Positions 15,607-23,790 of a DNA stretch of 53,170 nucleotides are shown one piece after another; the stretch's first letter is position 1; every line of letters begins with the position of its first letter. The notes under the pieces are model-generated. The model did not search any database. It was not told the DNA's origin and was given only the letters and a program-made list of their open reading frames with translations. The position numbers and the translations under genes are program-made. The DNA comes from Fundidesulfovibrio agrisoli. GTDB lineage: Bacteria > Desulfobacterota > Desulfovibrionia > Desulfovibrionales > Desulfovibrionaceae. Location of the stretch: contig NZ_JAKZKX010000025.1 of the NCBI RefSeq assembly GCF_022808715.1, positions 1-53,170 on the forward strand, written 5' to 3'.

Positions 15607-18600
15607 ATGAACGCAGGAATCACCCGCGTGCTCGGCAAGCGCAGCTTCTGGCCCCTGTTCGTCAGCCAGTTCCTGGGCGCGGCCAACGACAACGTGTTCA
15701 AGAACGCCATCGCCATCCTGGTGATCTACCGCCTGGGCGAGGCCTCGGCCATGCCCCCGCAGGTGCTGGTCAACATCGCCTCGGGCCTGTTCATGCTGCC
15801 CTTCTTCCTGTTCTCGGCCACGGCCGGGCAATTGGCCGACCGCTATGAGAAGAGCGGGCTCATCCGCCTGGTCAAGCTGGCGGAGGTGGCCGTGGTCTCG
15901 CTGGGGGCCTGGTCCCTGCTGGCCGAAAGCGTATCCGGGATGCTGGCCGTGCTCTTCCTGCTGGGGGCGCAGGCCACGTTCTTCGGGCCGCTCAAGTACG
16001 CCATCCTGCCCGAGCAGCTGCCCGAGGCGGAACTGGTGGACGGCAACGCGCTCATCGAGGGCGGCACCTTCCTGGCCATCCTGCTGGGCACCATCGCCGG
16101 GGGCATGCTGGTGCTGGAGCGGGGCGGCGTCGCCATCATCTGCGTCATGCTCGTGGGCTTCTCGGTGCTGGGCTTCGCGGCCAGCCTGCTGCTGCCCGAG
16201 GCCAGACCCGGAGACAAGACCCTGTCCGTGAGCCCGCACATCCTGCGGGAGACCTTCGCGGTCATGGGAATGGCCAAGAAGAAGCGGGACGTGTACCTCT
16301 CGGTGCTTGGCATCTCCTGGTTCTGGCTGGTGGGCATCACCTACCTCTCGCAGTTCCCGGCCTTCGCCAAGGACGTGCTCCACGCGGGCGAGCACGCCGT
16401 GACCCTCATGCTCACCGTGTTCTCCGTGGGCATCGGCCTGGGATCGGCGCTCTGCTCCAGGATGCTCAAGGGCGAGATCTCGGCCCGGCACGTGCCCCTG
16501 GCCGCCCTGGCCATGAGCGCCTTCGCTTTCGACCTCTGGCTCTCCTCCGCGCACTTCGCGCACCTGTCCGCCGAGGCCCCGGTCATGGGGCTCTCCGCCC
16601 TGCTGGCCATGCCCGGCGCGTGGCGGGTGCTGGCGGACCTGCTGCTGTTCTCCGTGGCGGGCGGCGTGTACATCGTGCCGCTCTACGCCATCCTCCAGGC
16701 CCGCAGCGAGGAGCACGAGCGGGCGCGCGTGGTGGCCGCCAACAACATCATGAACGCGGCCTTCATGGTGGCCGCCTCCCTGGCCGGGGCGGGCATGCTG
16801 GCCCTGGGCTTCGGGGTGGAGCAGGTCTTCCTGGCCGTGGCCGTGTCCACGCTGGCGGTGGCCGTGTACATCTGCAAGCTGCTGCCCGACGCCCTGTTCA
16901 AGGCGTTCTTCGTCTGGCTGCTCAGGTCGCTCTACCGCGTGGAGGTCCGGGGCGTTGAGAACCTGCTGGCCGCCGGCGAGCGGGCCGTGGTGGTGGTCAA
17001 CCACGTCTCCTTCCTTGACCCGGTGCTCCTGGCGGCCTTCCTGCCCGGGCGGCCCGTGTTCGCGGTGAACAGCTTCGTGGCCCGGCTCTGGTGGGTGCGG
17101 CCCTTCCTCAGGCTGGTGGAGGCCTACCCCATGGACCCCACCAACCCCATGGCCACCAGGGGCCTGATCCAGGCCGTGCAGGCAGGGCGGGTCTGCGTGA
17201 TCTTCCCCGAGGGGCGCATCACCACCACCGGGGCGCTGATGAAGGTCTACGCCGGGCCGGGCATGATCGCGGACAAGGCGGACGCGCCCCTGGTGCCCGT
17301 GCGCATCGAGGGCGCGCAGTACACGCCCTTCTCGCGCCTGGGCGGCAAGGTGCGCCGACGCCTGTTCCCCAAGATCACCATAACGGTCCAGCCGCCGCAG
17401 CGCTTCGAGCTGCCCGAAGGGGCCAAGGGGCGGGAGCGCCGCAAGGTCATCGGGCTTAAGCTCTACGACGTCATGTCGAACATGATGTTCGCCACCTACG
17501 ACCACCGGCGCACCCTCTTCGCCGCCCTGCTGGAGGCCCTGGGCACCCGTGGGCGCGGGGCCGTCGCCTGCGAGGACGTCAACCGCGCGCCCCTGAGCTG
17601 CGGCAGGCTCGCGGCCGGGGTCATGGCCCTTGGCAGGCGCGTGGCTGGCATGACGGCCCCGGCCGAGGCCGTGGGGCTGATGCTGCCCAACTCCAACGCG
17701 GCGGCGGTGGCCTTCTTTGGCTGCCAGGCCTTCGGGCGCGTCCCGGCCATGCTCAACTTCACCTCGGGCGTGCAGAACGTGCTCTCCGCCTGCGACACGG
17801 CGCGCATCGCCACGGTGCTGACTTCGCGCCGCTTCATCGAGCAGGCCGGGCTGAGCGTTCTCGCTGACGCTTTGGCCGCCAAGGTGAATCTCGTCTACCT
17901 GGAGGACCTCAGGGCGCGGATGGGCCTCGCCGACAAGCTGTACGGGCTGGCCGCGCCGCTCCTCCCCGGGCGGTTCGCTCCGGGGCTGCGCCTGTCCTGC
18001 GACGACCCGGCCGTGATCCTTTTCACCTCCGGCTCTGAGGGCGCGCCCAAGGGCGTGGCCCTGTCCCACGCCAACATCCTGGCCAACTGCGGCCAGTTGG
18101 CCGCGCGGGTGGCCTTCTCCGCCTCGGACGTGGTCTTCAACGCCCTGCCCGTGTTCCACTCCTTCGGGCTCACCGGGGGCATGATCCTGCCGCTGGTCTC
18201 GGGGCTGCGCACCTTCTTCTACCCCTCGCCCCTGCACTACCGCATCGTGCCCGAGATGGCCTACGACACCAACGCCACCATCATCTTCGGCACGGACACC
18301 TTCCTGGCCGGGTACGCCCGCGTGGCCTCGCCCTACGATTTCTACAGCGTGCGCTACGTGTTCGCGGGCGCGGAAAAGGTGCGCGACGAGACCCGGCGGC
18401 AGTGGATGGACTCCTTCGGGCTGCGCATCCTGGAGGGGTACGGGGCCACCGAGACCGCCCCGGTGCTGGCCGTGAACACGCCCATGCACTACCGGGCCGG
18501 CACCGTGGGCCGCCTGCTGCCGGGCATCGACTGCCGCGTGGAGCCCGTGCCCGGCGTGGACGAGGGCGGCCGGCTGTGGGTGAAGGGCCCCAACGTGATG

Positions 18601-19056
18601 CTCGGGTACCTGCGGGCCTCGCGCCCCGGCGTGCTGGAGCCGCCCGTCGACGGCTGGTACGACACCGGGGACATCGTCTCGGTGGATGAGGCGGGCTACG
18701 TGCGCATCCTGGGCCGTGCCAAGCGCTTCGCCAAGGTGGGCGGGGAGATGGTGCCCCTTGGCCGGGTGGAGAGCGAGATTTCCGCGCTCTGGCCCAAGCA
18801 GGCCCACGCCGTCGTCGCCCTGCACGGCGACAAGGGCGAGCGGCTGATCCTGGCCACCACACGGGCCGGGGCCACTCGCTCCGAGATACTGGCGCACTTC
18901 CGGGCCACGGGCCTGCCCGAACTCATGGCGCCCAAGGCCATCCAGGTGCTCCCGAAGATGCCTCTGTTGGGCAACGGCAAGACCGACTACGTGAGCGTGC
19001 AGGCTTTGATGGAGGCGGCCGAGGCCGCCAAGCGCGAGGGGAGCGGCGGCGAATAG
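15607..19056 (+). CDS. aas: LplT-like transporter / PlsC acyltransferase / acyl-ACP synthetase fusion
   Basis: A 1149-residue inner-membrane protein that joins three activities used to recycle lysophospholipids. Residues ~1-410 are a 12-helix MFS flippase like LplT (FLGAANDNVFKNA at the start). The acyltransferase domain has NHVSFLD (465-471) and FPEGR (533-537), the two PlsC motifs. The AMP-binding acyl-ACP/acyl-CoA synthetase has FTSGSEGAPKG (from 806), GYGATETAP and a C-terminal KVGGEMV / GNGKTDY pair with the catalytic Lys. E. coli uses separate LplT and Aas proteins; the fused form is known from other bacteria. GGGAGG precedes the ATG, which lies 1 bp after the amidohydrolase stop. Confidence 0.92.
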   Translation: MNAGITRVLGKRSFWPLFVSQFLGAANDNVFKNAIAILVIYRLGEASAMPPQVLVNIASGLFMLPFFLFSATAGQLADRYEKSGLIRLVKLAEVAVVSLGAWSLLAESVSGMLAVLFLLGAQATFFGPLKYAILPEQLPEAELVDGNALIEGGTFLAILLGTIAGGMLVLERGGVAIICVMLVGFSVLGFAASLLLPEARPGDKTLSVSPHILRETFAVMGMAKKKRDVYLSVLGISWFWLVGITYLSQFPAFAKDVLHAGEHAVTLMLTVFSVGIGLGSALCSRMLKGEISARHVPLAALAMSAFAFDLWLSSAHFAHLSAEAPVMGLSALLAMPGAWRVLADLLLFSVAGGVYIVPLYAILQARSEEHERARVVAANNIMNAAFMVAASLAGAGMLALGFGVEQVFLAVAVSTLAVAVYICKLLPDALFKAFFVWLLRSLYRVEVRGVENLLAAGERAVVVVNHVSFLDPVLLAAFLPGRPVFAVNSFVARLWWVRPFLRLVEAYPMDPTNPMATRGLIQAVQAGRVCVIFPEGRITTTGALMKVYAGPGMIADKADAPLVPVRIEGAQYTPFSRLGGKVRRRLFPKITITVQPPQRFELPEGAKGRERRKVIGLKLYDVMSNMMFATYDHRRTLFAALLEALGTRGRGAVACEDVNRAPLSCGRLAAGVMALGRRVAGMTAPAEAVGLMLPNSNAAAVAFFGCQAFGRVPAMLNFTSGVQNVLSACDTARIATVLTSRRFIEQAGLSVLADALAAKVNLVYLEDLRARMGLADKLYGLAAPLLPGRFAPGLRLSCDDPAVILFTSGSEGAPKGVALSHANILANCGQLAARVAFSASDVVFNALPVFHSFGLTGGMILPLVSGLRTFFYPSPLHYRIVPEMAYDTNATIIFGTDTFLAGYARVASPYDFYSVRYVFAGAEKVRDETRRQWMDSFGLRILEGYGATETAPVLAVNTPMHYRAGTVGRLLPGIDCRVEPVPGVDEGGRLWVKGPNVMLGYLRASRPGVLEPPVDGWYDTGDIVSVDEAGYVRILGRAKRFAKVGGEMVPLGRVESEISALWPKQAHAVVALHGDKGERLILATTRAGATRSEILAHFRATGLPELMAPKAIQVLPKMPLLGNGKTDYVSVQALMEAAEAAKREGSGGE

Positions 19057-20558: not shown

Positions 20559-21353
20559 GTGAAACATCTCACAGTCTTCCTGCTGGCGTTCCTGTTGTGG
20601 CCCCTCCCGGCGTCCGCCTTCGACCGCTTCGACATCGTGACCACCGAACAGGTCCGGGAGATGCTCGCCGCCCGCGAGGCGGGCACCGGCGAGGACTTCC
20701 TGCTGGTCAACACCCTGGACGACATCATCTACCACCACGAGCACATCCCCGGCTCCGTGAGCCTGCCCTGGACCCGCGTGGCCGAATACGAGGCCGTGCT
20801 CGGCGGCGACAAGGGCAAGTGCCTCGTCTTCTACTGAATGGGTTCAAGGTGAGTATTCGCCTACAAGGTGGCGGTCGCCATCAAGAACCAGGGCTACACG
20901 AACATCAAGATTTACAACGGCGGCATCAAGGATTGGAAGCAGGCCGGGCTGCCCGTGGCCTCCATCGAGCCCCTGCCGGAATACACCGGCGAAATGATCA
21001 CCTGCGAGGAGGTCTACGCCATCATGCAGCGCAGCGAGAACTGCCTGGACGAAAACGGCAACCCGCTGCTGACGATCCTAGACTTCCGCATCGAAAACTC
21101 GCTGGAGGAGGCGGCCGACGGCCTGAAGCGCATCAAGACGCGCTGCCCGGTGATAACCTGCCTGCTCGACGAGGTGCGCCTGCCCGAGCAGCGGGCCCGC
21201 ATCCCCAAGGAGGGGCTCGTGGTCACCATCACGGAGACGGGCAACCGGGACGATGTGGCCATGCGCTACCTGAGCGGGTTCGGCTACAGGAACGTGAAGG
21301 GTCTGGAGTTCGGCATGCGCGGGTGGATCAAGAGCAAGCTCCCCATAGAATAG
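20559..21353 (+). CDS. Tandem rhodanese with two in-frame UGA codons, probable selenoprotein
   Basis: Read through two TGA codons (20835-20837 and 20850-20852), this is one 264-residue protein starting at GTG 20559 with a signal peptide (TVFLLAFLLWPLPASA). Domain 1 (~25-125) has the rhodanese pattern: LLVNTLDDIIYHHEHIPGSV, the loop, then NQGYTNIKIYNGGIKDWKQ. The active loop reads VFY-(UGA)-MGSR-(UGA)-VFAYK, at codons 93 and 98. In the related rhodaneses with a Y-C-x-G-x-x-C loop, both positions are Cys. Domain 2 (~138-262) is a degenerate rhodanese with ETGNR in place of a Cys loop. There is no frameshift and no other stop. A GGUC-loop hairpin follows at the right distance. I infer selenocysteine at 93 and 98; the alternative is a pseudogene with two TGC-to-TGA changes. 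The GGDEF-EAL gene follows 13 bp later. Confidence 0.75.
20867..20882 (+). other. Candidate bacterial SECIS hairpin
   Basis: The 16 nt GGTGGCGGTCGCCATC fold into a 6-bp stem (one G-U wobble) with the tetraloop GGUC. The loop begins 20 nt after the second UGA and 35 nt after the first. As I recall it, the bacterial SECIS consensus asks for a G in the first two loop bases and 16-37 nt from UGA to loop, and E. coli SelB recognises GGU in the fdhF loop; both hold here. A short lower stem is possible (20860-20862 with 20890-20892). Confidence 0.6.
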
Positions 21354-21366
21354 CCGGGGGAATCCG

Positions 21367-23790
21367 ATGCATCTGCCGTCCATAGGTACCCGGCTGTACC
21401 AGCTTGTGGTTCTGATGTGCCTGCTCGTCGGGCTGGCCATCTCCATGCTGGTGCTCAAGAGGGTCGACTCCCACATCCAGGAGCGCACGCAGGAGGTGCT
21501 CCGGCTGGACAAGGCCCTGAGCAGCCTCGACGCCGACGAGGAGGCGGCCCTGCGCGGCGAGACCGTCGCGATGCCCTCCGGGCATCTGCGGATATCCGAG
21601 CACTTCAAGGGTCACCTGACCCCCGAGGTCGAAGGGATGCTGGTCACGCGCGGCGGCATTTTCGACCAGCTCCTTGTCCTGACCCGGCGCATGGAGAACG
21701 AGCACACCGAAGTCTTCTCCAAGCTGCTCGACATCACGGACGCCGTCCGCTACATCCACCAGCACCATGCCACCTTCCTCCAGAACCTGGTCAACCGCGA
21801 GGCCATCTCGGGGCCATCTCCCTCCGGCCGCGACCCCCAGCGCAAGCTGAACGAGTCCGCCAACACGGAGCTCTCCATCATCCGTGAATCCCTGAACATC
21901 TATACGTCACTCTTCGATATCCACGCCGTGTTCTTCAAGCTGCAGCAGGCCGGGCCCGAGGGCGTGGGCGAGCTGTTCCAGAAGCACATGGCCAAGTTCA
22001 ATGCCGCCATCACCGCCTTCGAGGACTACTCACTGGACGCGCAGGACGGCCTGCTGGTGGAGGAGCTGCTGCTCACGGGCAAGAACTTCGAGCAGTCCTT
22101 CTCCGGGCTGGTGGAGATGGCCCGGGAGCGCGTGCGTTTTCTCCAACTGCTGGACCAGAGCAAGGCCGCACTGAACGTGACCACGCAGAAGTTCCTGGCC
22201 GAGCAGGAGGCCGAGGTGCGCAAGGCCCAGCTCTGGTCGGACATCCTCCAGACCACCTTCATCGCCGTCATCGTGCTGTTCGCGGCCCTGTTCATCGCCC
22301 ACTGCTCCCAGATGTCCAGGGCGGTGAAGCGCATCGCCAACGAGGCCCACATGCTCCAGAAGGACCTGGGGCACCGCGTGGACACCGATTCGGCCTGGTT
22401 CGACGAATTCCAGGCCGTCTTCATGACCTTCAACACCATGGCCGGGACCCTGGGCCATCAGATGGGGCAGCTCACCTCCCTGGCCTTCAACGACACCCTC
22501 ACCGGGCTGCCCAACAGGACGCACCTGCTGCACCGGCTGGAATACGCCATCGCCGCCTCGCGCAAGACCCCGGACTACATCTTCGCGGTGGTCTTCCTGG
22601 ACCTGGACCGCTTCAAGATCATCAACGACAGCCTGGGGCACGAATGCGGCGACGAGGTGCTCAGGACCTTCGGGCGCACCCTCGTCGAGTGCATCCGCGA
22701 GGGCGACACGGTGGCCCGCCTGGGCGGCGACGAGTTCGCCATCCTGCTTGAGAACCTGCGCTCCCGGAGGGAGGTCATCCAGGTGGTCAAGCGCATCAAG
22801 GCCCGCATCGCGAAGCGCATCTCGGTGTCGGGCTTCGGTCTCATCGTCCAGGCGAGCATCGGCATCTCCATCAACCCCAAAGGGCAGAAACCCGAGGACA
22901 TCCTGCGCGACGCCGACATCGCCATGTACGACGCCAAGAAGAAGGGCGCGGGCAAGTTCAAGGTCTACACCCCGCGCCTGGGGGAACAGGCCCTGCGCGT
23001 ACTGAACATGGAGCTGGACCTGCGCCAGGCCATCGAAAGGGAGGAGATCGAGGTCTATTTCCAGCCCATCATGGAACTGGAAACCGGCAGGCTCCACGGC
23101 TTCGAGGCCCTGGCCCGGTGGAGCCACCCGGTGCACGGGGTCATCCCGCCCTCCAAGTTCATCCCCCTGGCCGAGGAGACCGGGCTGATCCTGCCGCTGG
23201 GGCGGCTGGTGCTGTCCCGGGCCTGCGGCTACGCGGGCCGCTGGCACGACACCCTCGGCCCCGGGGTGGGCCTGATCGTGCACGTGAACCTCTCCCCCAA
23301 GCAGTTCTGCGACGCCGGGCTGGTGCAGGAGGTGGCGCGGGAGCTGGGTACCCACGGGCTGCCCGCCCGGCTGCTGAACCTGGAGATCACTGAGACCATG
23401 CTCATGGCCAACGCCATCAACGCCCTGGGCATCATGAACCGGCTCAAGGATCTGGGGGTCGGCCTCTCCCTGGACGACTTCGGCACGGGCTATTCCTCCC
23501 TGGGCAATCTCCGCGACTACCCGGTGGACACCTTCAAAATCGACCGCTCATTCATCACCAGGCTCTGCCACGACCAGAAGACCGAGGATATGGTCCAACT
23601 GGTGCTGGCCATGTCCAGGACGCTGGGCAAGGAGGTGGTGGCGGAAGGGGTGGAGAACGCGGGGCAGGTCGCGCTGCTGCGCAGCCTGGGGTGCAGGCTG
23701 GTGCAGGGGTACCATTTCTCCCGCCCGCTCAGCCCCCGGGATATGGACGCCTTCATCGAGTTCGGAGTGCCGCGGTACCAGACGGCCTGA
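21367..23790 (+). CDS. Membrane GGDEF-EAL protein (c-di-GMP synthesis and breakdown)
   Basis: An 807-residue sensor. An N-terminal helix (LVVLMCLLVGLAISMLVL) and a second at ~298-312 (FIAVIVLFAALFIA) bracket a ~250-residue periplasmic, mostly helical sensor region. A short HAMP-like stretch follows. The GGDEF domain has an intact GGDEF (453-457) and an inhibitory RxxD five residues before it (REGD). The EAL domain has EAL (580-582), NLEITETMLM, LDDFGTGYSSL and a late AEGVE, so both activities look intact. The gene is 13 bp downstream of the UGA-containing rhodanese, so the two are probably co-transcribed; the periplasmic rhodanese may feed a signal to this sensor (inference). Confidence 0.93.
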   Translation: MHLPSIGTRLYQLVVLMCLLVGLAISMLVLKRVDSHIQERTQEVLRLDKALSSLDADEEAALRGETVAMPSGHLRISEHFKGHLTPEVEGMLVTRGGIFDQLLVLTRRMENEHTEVFSKLLDITDAVRYIHQHHATFLQNLVNREAISGPSPSGRDPQRKLNESANTELSIIRESLNIYTSLFDIHAVFFKLQQAGPEGVGELFQKHMAKFNAAITAFEDYSLDAQDGLLVEELLLTGKNFEQSFSGLVEMARERVRFLQLLDQSKAALNVTTQKFLAEQEAEVRKAQLWSDILQTTFIAVIVLFAALFIAHCSQMSRAVKRIANEAHMLQKDLGHRVDTDSAWFDEFQAVFMTFNTMAGTLGHQMGQLTSLAFNDTLTGLPNRTHLLHRLEYAIAASRKTPDYIFAVVFLDLDRFKIINDSLGHECGDEVLRTFGRTLVECIREGDTVARLGGDEFAILLENLRSRREVIQVVKRIKARIAKRISVSGFGLIVQASIGISINPKGQKPEDILRDADIAMYDAKKKGAGKFKVYTPRLGEQALRVLNMELDLRQAIEREEIEVYFQPIMELETGRLHGFEALARWSHPVHGVIPPSKFIPLAEETGLILPLGRLVLSRACGYAGRWHDTLGPGVGLIVHVNLSPKQFCDAGLVQEVARELGTHGLPARLLNLEITETMLMANAINALGIMNRLKDLGVGLSLDDFGTGYSSLGNLRDYPVDTFKIDRSFITRLCHDQKTEDMVQLVLAMSRTLGKEVVAEGVENAGQVALLRSLGCRLVQGYHFSRPLSPRDMDAFIEFGVPRYQTA

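Follow-up and report, generated by a model that had tools for sequence, protein, structure and literature searches.

Organization of the Locus

The window, that is, the whole stretch of 53,170 nucleotides of Fundidesulfovibrio agrisoli analysed here, contains a gene for a secreted two-domain rhodanese with two in-frame TGA codons (20559..21353, 264 amino acids with TGA read as Sec). The gene of a partner receptor of 807 amino acids begins 13 nt downstream (21367..23790); by Pfam and alignment this receptor has an N-terminal membrane/periplasmic helical domain followed by GGDEF and EAL. All the features of the pair described below lie on the forward strand.

The rhodanese frame runs from GTG at 20559, which is aligned to ATG in the copy of the same genus, to TAG at 21353. 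Of its 264 codons exactly two are internal stops. The original prediction had been of one frame, free of frameshifts, interrupted only by TGA at codons 93 and 98, and the translation confirmed it. By alignment with homologues, TGA 1 (20835..20837, codon 93) occupies the catalytic position of the rhodanese loop and TGA 2 (20850..20852, codon 98) the sixth position; with TGA as Sec the loop reads FYU-MGSR-UVFAYK. In rhodanese chemistry the nucleophile is provided by the first residue of the loop. The sixth residue, in most cases Ser or Thr, points towards the bound sulfur. A signal peptide was recognised by eye in residues 1-20 (20559..20618), which end in LPASA and are followed by F.

It had also been claimed that the family sequence continues past both stops. 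When these are read as residues, a single Pfam Rhodanese domain (PF00581) indeed spans both of them, at residues 55-128, with 55.9 bits versus a cut-off of 22.2. Alignment and model place a second rhodanese-like domain at 20988..21350, for which the Pfam scan of the protein gave no separate match; E-T-G-N-R-D is found where its catalytic loop should be, so that this C-terminal domain has no nucleophile there, neither Cys nor Sec. An AlphaFold2 model based on 18 aligned rows had a mean pLDDT of 88.3, and Foldseek returned 113 PDB matches at E ≤ 0.001, with the two-domain rhodanese 6mxv at the top. The best 50 of these 113 were rhodaneses, thiosulfate and mercaptopyruvate sulfurtransferases, and the ergothioneine enzyme EanB. 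In the same 50 the whole-chain TM by query was only 0.32-0.41 with a large rmsd, which indicates that the folds agree domain by domain; the two domains of the model are probably arranged otherwise than in the matched rhodaneses. By PF00581 and by fold the protein is a member of the rhodanese superfamily, with a sulfurtransferase activity that is only putative.

The same-genus copy (L019) is 92% identical to the window's rhodanese. No other close relative was found to carry the gene. Both TGAs are kept in this copy, and it showed no sign of the decay that would have spoken against a functional reading. The dN/dS between the two was 0.16 after TGA 2 and 0.51 before TGA 1, the segment in which the signal peptide falls, and 0.22 for the partner gene. 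Judged by these ratios, the rhodanese sequence after TGA 2 is under purifying selection.

Selenocysteine Machinery

The machinery was looked for in the window's genome only (G000, 3.94 Mb, 52 contigs), and all the components that the original prediction called for were found there: selA (C24:38307; SelA, 535.9 bits), selB (C24:41044; 366.8 bits versus a cut-off of 242.25), the tRNA-Sec (selC) with anticodon tca, and selD. The last has itself one in-frame TGA, read VRAAG-TGA-AAK, and this G-TGA-AAK context agrees with the UxxK motif with which SelD is listed in Table 1 of a 2026 review (PMC13188914). We infer that both TGA codons of the rhodanese are translated as Sec; as read from the sequence, the double selenocysteine is well supported.

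Members of the Family and State of the Two Loop Sites

Eighteen members were gathered: L010-L017, the window (L018), L019, L021-L023, L033, L036, L038, L042, and L043. L010-L017 were found with six peptide patterns, all outside the loop, and the others by whole-sequence searches in which Cys was written at both sites and stops were read through. Eight sequences were left out as the same genes (L028-L032, L034, L035, and L037, equal to L010, L012, L011, L013, L015, L021, L022, and L017), and L039 as another piece of the gene of L042. L044 was also left out, taken as a second piece of the L043 gene; its overlap with L043 differs by at least one residue, and it may be another copy. In five of the 18 members (L016, L017, L038, L042, and L043) the gene is incomplete or carries a frameshift in its contig. 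L020, a piece of a rhodanese with a single domain and the loop C-GFVK-C, was left out, and L040 and L041 were counted apart as distant relatives.

Site 2 was TGA in 18/18 members, and site 1 was TGA in nine and Cys in nine. Neither TAA nor TAG was seen at either site among the 18, so that all 27 in-frame stops at the two sites are TGA; this bears out the earlier argument that random decay would hardly produce such a pattern. The best tree, made from columns outside the loop, requires six changes in the state of site 1, two of them forced by well-supported branches. The expectation that relatives would have Cys at both columns held for site 1 in nine members and needs correcting for site 2, which is never Cys in the 18 members. 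Cys at both columns appeared only in more distant relatives, that is, in L040 (C-LGTQ-C) and in the single-domain L020. The other distant relative, L041, has the loop C-MGTL-TGA, and taking L041 and L040 together both columns can be read as Cys/Sec columns. L020 (L020:1500-1710) lies in a genome of the window's genus, G094, and is 41% identical over 69 residues.

The Sec rhodanese was found in 2/7 genomes of the window's genus (a third match was L020), 2/149 of its taxonomic family, and 4/395 of its phylum, the window's own genome being counted each time. Further genome sets gave 14/389 positives, two of them the distant relatives, and 2/46; an additional search returned the same 14 positives as the 389-genome set and added none. 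The Cys-Sec form is carried by Desulfosarcina alkanivorans PL12 and Desulfogranum japonicum DSM 18378. TsoB, the double-Sec rhodanese discussed below, was above its cut-off in 21/395 genomes of the same phylum. The family is thus rare and patchy, and rarer than TsoB in the phylum. Spread by mobile elements was considered and rejected: none of five candidate stretches in viral contigs was a relative, and plasmids gave weak rhodanese matches only (15 records, 26-42% identity).

Candidate SECIS Hairpins

In the published model of the bacterial SECIS, a stem of 4-16 bp carries a loop of 3-9 nt with G in the first two positions, located 16-37 nt after the UGA, with an MFE ≤ -7.5 kcal/mol (PMC13188914, section 5). 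By fold, covariation and agreement with this model in the window, the main SECIS candidate is the downstream hairpin at 20867..20882 (hairpin 2), with the loop GGUC at 20873-20876. It has 6 bp plus a loop-closing pair and an energy of -9.1 kcal/mol in a 26-nt piece. The loop is 20 nt from TGA 2 and 35 nt from TGA 1, the latter still within 16-37 nt, so that one element could serve both TGAs.

Hairpin 2 was present in 18/18 members, with the loop GGUC or AGUU at 20 nt after TGA 2. Its energy in the 26-nt piece ranged from -5.3 to -11.1 kcal/mol and was ≤ -7.5 in 11/18. The loop-closing pair, A-U in 11 members and G-C in seven, corresponds to the N1...N2 pair of the published model (PMC13188914, section 5). 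In the alignment 95.2% of the cells were paired, and 16 changes were double-sided. None of 500 shuffles, which ignore relatedness, reached the covariation score of the two-helix structure as a whole; the pairs with a double-sided change were three, which is no excess, this number being reached by 363/500 shuffles. Compared with 1000 synonymous recodings of each member, hairpin 2 was among the most stable 5% in 11/18 members (range 0.001-0.166).

A second, upstream hairpin at 20847..20862 (hairpin 1) has the loop GUAU at 20853-20856 and contains TGA 2 in its 5′ arm; the evidence for it is suggestive only. Its loop starts 15 nt after TGA 1 (16 nt in L023, where the register differs). An energy ≤ -3 kcal/mol was found in 9/9 members with TGA at site 1 and in 2/9 members with Cys (L013 and L036), the ranges being -3.5 to -8.0 and -0.3 to -5.2, respectively (Mann-Whitney p 0.0025, 9 versus 9). 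Among 1000 synonymous recodings of each member it was within the most stable 5% in 7/9 TGA members and 1/9 Cys members. These data are suggestive of a tie between hairpin 1 and TGA at site 1. The link is not significant when relatedness is allowed for, there being two well-supported independent pairs, and the presence of hairpin 1 is confounded with a following Ala or Ser residue. Helix 1 had no double-sided changes on the member alignment.

Rfam at its gathering thresholds gave no match in the window, hence no SECIS assignment comes from it. In 11/12 TsoB genes (L061-L072) the second TGA likewise sits on the 5′ arm of a short hairpin (UGAGUC...GACUC), an arrangement comparable to hairpin 1 here; against synonymous recodings, hairpin 1 of TsoB was among the most stable 5% in 0/12 genes and hairpin 2 in 1/12.

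The Partner Receptor and the Pairing of the Genes

A receptor with the same sensor region as the window's was found directly downstream of the rhodanese in 18/18 loci; in the broken copy L052 there are about 300 nt between the two frames. Among 20 neighbourhoods (the window, L014, L016, and L017 included) only two protein clusters recurred in at least three loci, and these were the rhodanese and the signalling proteins. A profile of the sensor region matched the loci of all 17 other members. Fifteen of these had gone into its building; the remaining two, L058 and L017, scored 234 and 362 bits.

The output part varies. Fourteen receptors were scanned with Pfam (L017, L044, L045, and L058 left out), and ten were hybrid histidine kinases (L014, L016, L046, L047, L048, L049, L050, L054, L055, and L057). 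L053 had PAS and a HisKA below its cut-off, L056 a HisKA at the contig end, in L052 no domain was called, and the window's receptor had GGDEF-EAL. In the reverse search the sensor was found in 9/215 genomes, in eight of them directly beside the Sec rhodanese. The ninth, G662, is also outside the positives of the 389-genome rhodanese search. Its sensor-kinase (L080:435-2957) belongs to the same sensor family, and no rhodanese was found in any frame on its contig piece of 2957 bases, which suggests that the sensor may act alone; it is a possible ancestral or orphan form.

The distant relatives are placed in a similar way. The C-x4-TGA rhodanese of two domains L041 lies directly before a HAMP-PAS-histidine kinase (L059:8127-10894), and the C-x4-C rhodanese of two domains L040 directly before a HAMP-MCP chemoreceptor (L060:2709-5517). 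Neither receptor matched the sensor profile, i.e., they have other sensor domains. This arrangement indicates that the pairing of rhodanese and receptor exists without Sec too.

The conserved sensor region comprises residues 1-330 of the partner (21367..22356) and was delimited by alignment and profile, with the motifs YIHxHH and EDYSLDAQDGLLVEELL. These 330 N-terminal residues align across the loci, the motifs extending to YIHxHHIAYLKN and FEDYSLDAQDGLLVEELL; the alignment is poorest for L048, which has 13% identity to the region of the window. No named family was found for it in Pfam (14 receptors) or in NCBIfam (the window's region). The model is an all-helical bundle (pLDDT 86.1). Its top PDB match in Foldseek was a coiled coil, followed by TorS sensor domains, alone and with TorT; five TorS sensor chains were among the 50 matches listed (E 2e-3 to 4e-2, TM by query 0.41-0.53), as were the receptors McpS, PilJ, and McpZ. 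No PDB match reached E ≤ 0.001, and helical bundles match promiscuously. The sensor profile against PDB sequences gave a best E of 0.34, and no TorS at E up to 10. A haem-c-like CxxCH motif was seen in 4/18 sensors (L046, L047, L016, and L044) and in the lone sensor L080; it was not seen in the others, two of the 18 (L058 and L017) being incomplete. As far as a motif can tell, this suggests that the receptor may have a ligand of its own.

Comparison with Known Systems

A 2026 review catalogues 119 families or subfamilies of prokaryotic selenoproteins and reads most of the uncharacterised ones as redox proteins (PMC13188914). Its Table 1 gives rhodanese forms 1-4 with one Sec (motifs UxxS, UxxG, CxU, and UxxG) and form 5, TsoB, with two Sec in UxxxxU. 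A UxxxxU double-Sec rhodanese is therefore already known, and TsoB is the precedent. As in our family, the rhodanese loop of TsoB has two TGAs at this spacing (YU-AGL[AT]-U in 12 TsoB loci), and the sequence after TGA 2 can be folded into a hairpin. TsoB reportedly goes back to Haft and Tolstoy in 2025.

The TsoB model NF045694, described as rhodanese/DsbD fusion-like, was the best NCBIfam match of the window's rhodanese, at residues 24-137. The score, however, was 60.5 bits versus a cut-off of 805, and the members L010 and L023 also remained below it, with 53.6 and 53.8 bits. Only positions 43-160 of the 572 of the profile are covered, without the DsbD-like part, in whose place the window's protein has the second, nucleophile-free rhodanese domain. 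The low score and the missing DsbD part rule out membership in TsoB. The genetic context also differs, since the sensor was found in 0/12 TsoB loci (flanks of about 1.5 kb at most) and in 18/18 here. Taking into account the scores, the rarity and the receptor context, we consider this a new family within the Sec rhodaneses, separate from TsoB. With forms 1-4 it shares a rhodanese domain with Sec in a listed motif, whereas these have one Sec each and here the motif is UxxxxU or CxxxxU (PMC13188914, Table 1). The window's protein also scored low with the LYCAU selenoprotein rhodanese NF041203 (40.7 bits versus a cut-off of 115). The BH2092 rhodanese (PDB 3o3w) has the loop C-W-G-P-A-C aligned to U-M-G-S-R-U, i.e., Cys at both positions instead of Sec; its chains (3o3w and 3nhv, of the same name) have 126 and 144 residues.

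By its arrangement the pair recalls TorT-TorS and AioX-AioS, in which a secreted protein works with a membrane receptor. TorS senses through the periplasmic protein TorT. The rhodanese and its receptor are likewise encoded together, in 18/18 loci. The sensor model resembles TorS weakly, at E 2e-3 or worse, and by sequence no match to TorS was found. AioX differs in being a periplasmic-binding protein without Sec and not a rhodanese, and we take TorT to be likewise a periplasmic-binding protein, neither rhodanese nor with Sec. Judged by titles and the openings of abstracts, no description was found of a selenoprotein or a rhodanese paired with such a receptor.

Proposed Role and Alternative Explanations

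The original prediction was of a double-selenocysteine sulfurtransferase. Sec and the rhodanese fold stood; the sulfurtransferase part did not fare so well, as the pairing with a receptor in 18/18 loci points to signalling. We consider it fairly likely that the periplasmic rhodanese with two Sec provides the input of a signalling pair formed with the adjoining receptor, and probably it is the selenium-based part of a periplasmic sensor, beyond a plain sulfur-transfer enzyme. With the nucleophile-free second domain and the dedicated receptor, it is simplest to read the rhodanese as a periplasmic sensor protein that works as TorT does with TorS. In such a pair, Sec would occupy the catalytic and sixth positions of the loop in the N-terminal domain, the C-terminal domain contributing no nucleophile. 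Both UGAs would be decoded by SelB with the SECIS hairpin just downstream of UGA 2, and the upstream hairpin containing UGA 2 may help UGA 1. A Sec residue in the sixth position would bring a selenol next to the nucleophile, which suits a Se-S or Se-Se bridge or a relay of sulfane sulfur or selenium. The loop would then react with periplasmic redox-active or sulfur/selenium species by Se-S, Se-Se, or per-sulfide/selenide chemistry. The receptor encoded by the next gene would read the state of the rhodanese with its helical periplasmic domain, with an output through GGDEF-EAL in the window and through the hybrid histidine kinase in 10/14 receptors scanned.

A signalling pair responsive to redox state or to sulfane sulfur is what we would expect with reasonable, not high, confidence; physical contact, chemistry and ligand are all proposed. 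The fuller picture is tentative, and we would give it slightly less than equal weight against its failing at some point: a Sec-Sec or Cys-Sec loop would sense an oxidant or a sulfur/selenium species and switch a receptor domain joined to kinase or c-di-GMP outputs, a thiol (Cys-Cys) relative standing beside a chemoreceptor, and two overlapping hairpins would enable one short stretch of mRNA to decode both UGAs, which are 15 nt from each other, UGA 2 lying within the stem that serves UGA 1. Several observations weigh against a signalling pair. Genes that share an operon may encode proteins that never meet: the receptor might respond to some other stimulus, and the rhodanese might be the enzyme that produces or clears the signal. 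The family is patchy even in the window's genus (2/7 genomes), Foldseek matched the sensor weakly, and four sensors and L080 have CxxCH.

The most serious alternative, in our opinion unlikely, is that the rhodanese works as an enzyme proper, a Sec sulfurtransferase or reductase of the periplasm, and that the adjoining receptor senses its substrate or product without direct contact. A rhodanese fold with Cys or Sec at the nucleophile position of 18/18 members is what such an enzyme would have, the two-gene operon fits it equally well, and the G662 sensor stands without a rhodanese on its contig piece. Yet an enzyme of this kind has to be reconciled with 20 loci where no other neighbour gene recurs and only the rhodanese and signalling clusters reach three loci, with a pairing that stays constant though the output class changes between kinase and GGDEF-EAL, and with distant relatives that also lie directly before receptors (the HAMP-PAS-kinase of L059 and the HAMP-MCP of L060). 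These points speak against it.

It is very improbable that only TGA 2 is Sec, TGA 1 being a recent stop or a poorly decoded codon and the main product truncated or regulatory. Site 1 is Cys or TGA in 18/18 members and never TAA, TAG, or another residue. Its six changes, two of them forced, are as expected of interchangeable Cys and Sec; dN/dS is 0.16 after TGA 2 in the double-TGA pair, and a double-TGA loop occurs in TsoB as well. This explanation draws on the constancy of TGA 2 in 18/18 members, with TGA 1 in nine, and on hairpin 2, well spaced for TGA 2 (20 nt), with TGA 1 near the far limit (35 nt versus 16-37 in section 5 of the review). As for a pseudogene, a sequencing error or a reassigned stop codon, which two in-frame stops in one gene might bring to mind, we give them almost no credence: the gene is kept in 18 genomes or contigs with TGA only, it shows purifying selection and a covarying hairpin in a genome with the Sec machinery, and the adjoining partner is an open frame without stops. 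On the continuous frame, the same-genus copy, dN/dS and hairpin covariation, we reject pseudogene, frameshift and code change.

If the signalling pair is real, signal transduction would be added to the roles of selenium; the receptor domain is defined, and the two named Cys-Sec strains allow this role to be tested. Nine Sec and nine Cys members at one catalytic position would be a natural experiment on the benefit of Sec. With UGAs 15 nt apart, the second within a hairpin that possibly serves the first, the decoding of neighbouring Sec codons is directly testable. A further feature of the locus lies upstream of the pair, where window positions 15607-19056 encode a major-facilitator, acyltransferase and AMP-binding fusion; in the genome of the same genus (L045), a protein that agrees with it in length and start lies close to the pair.
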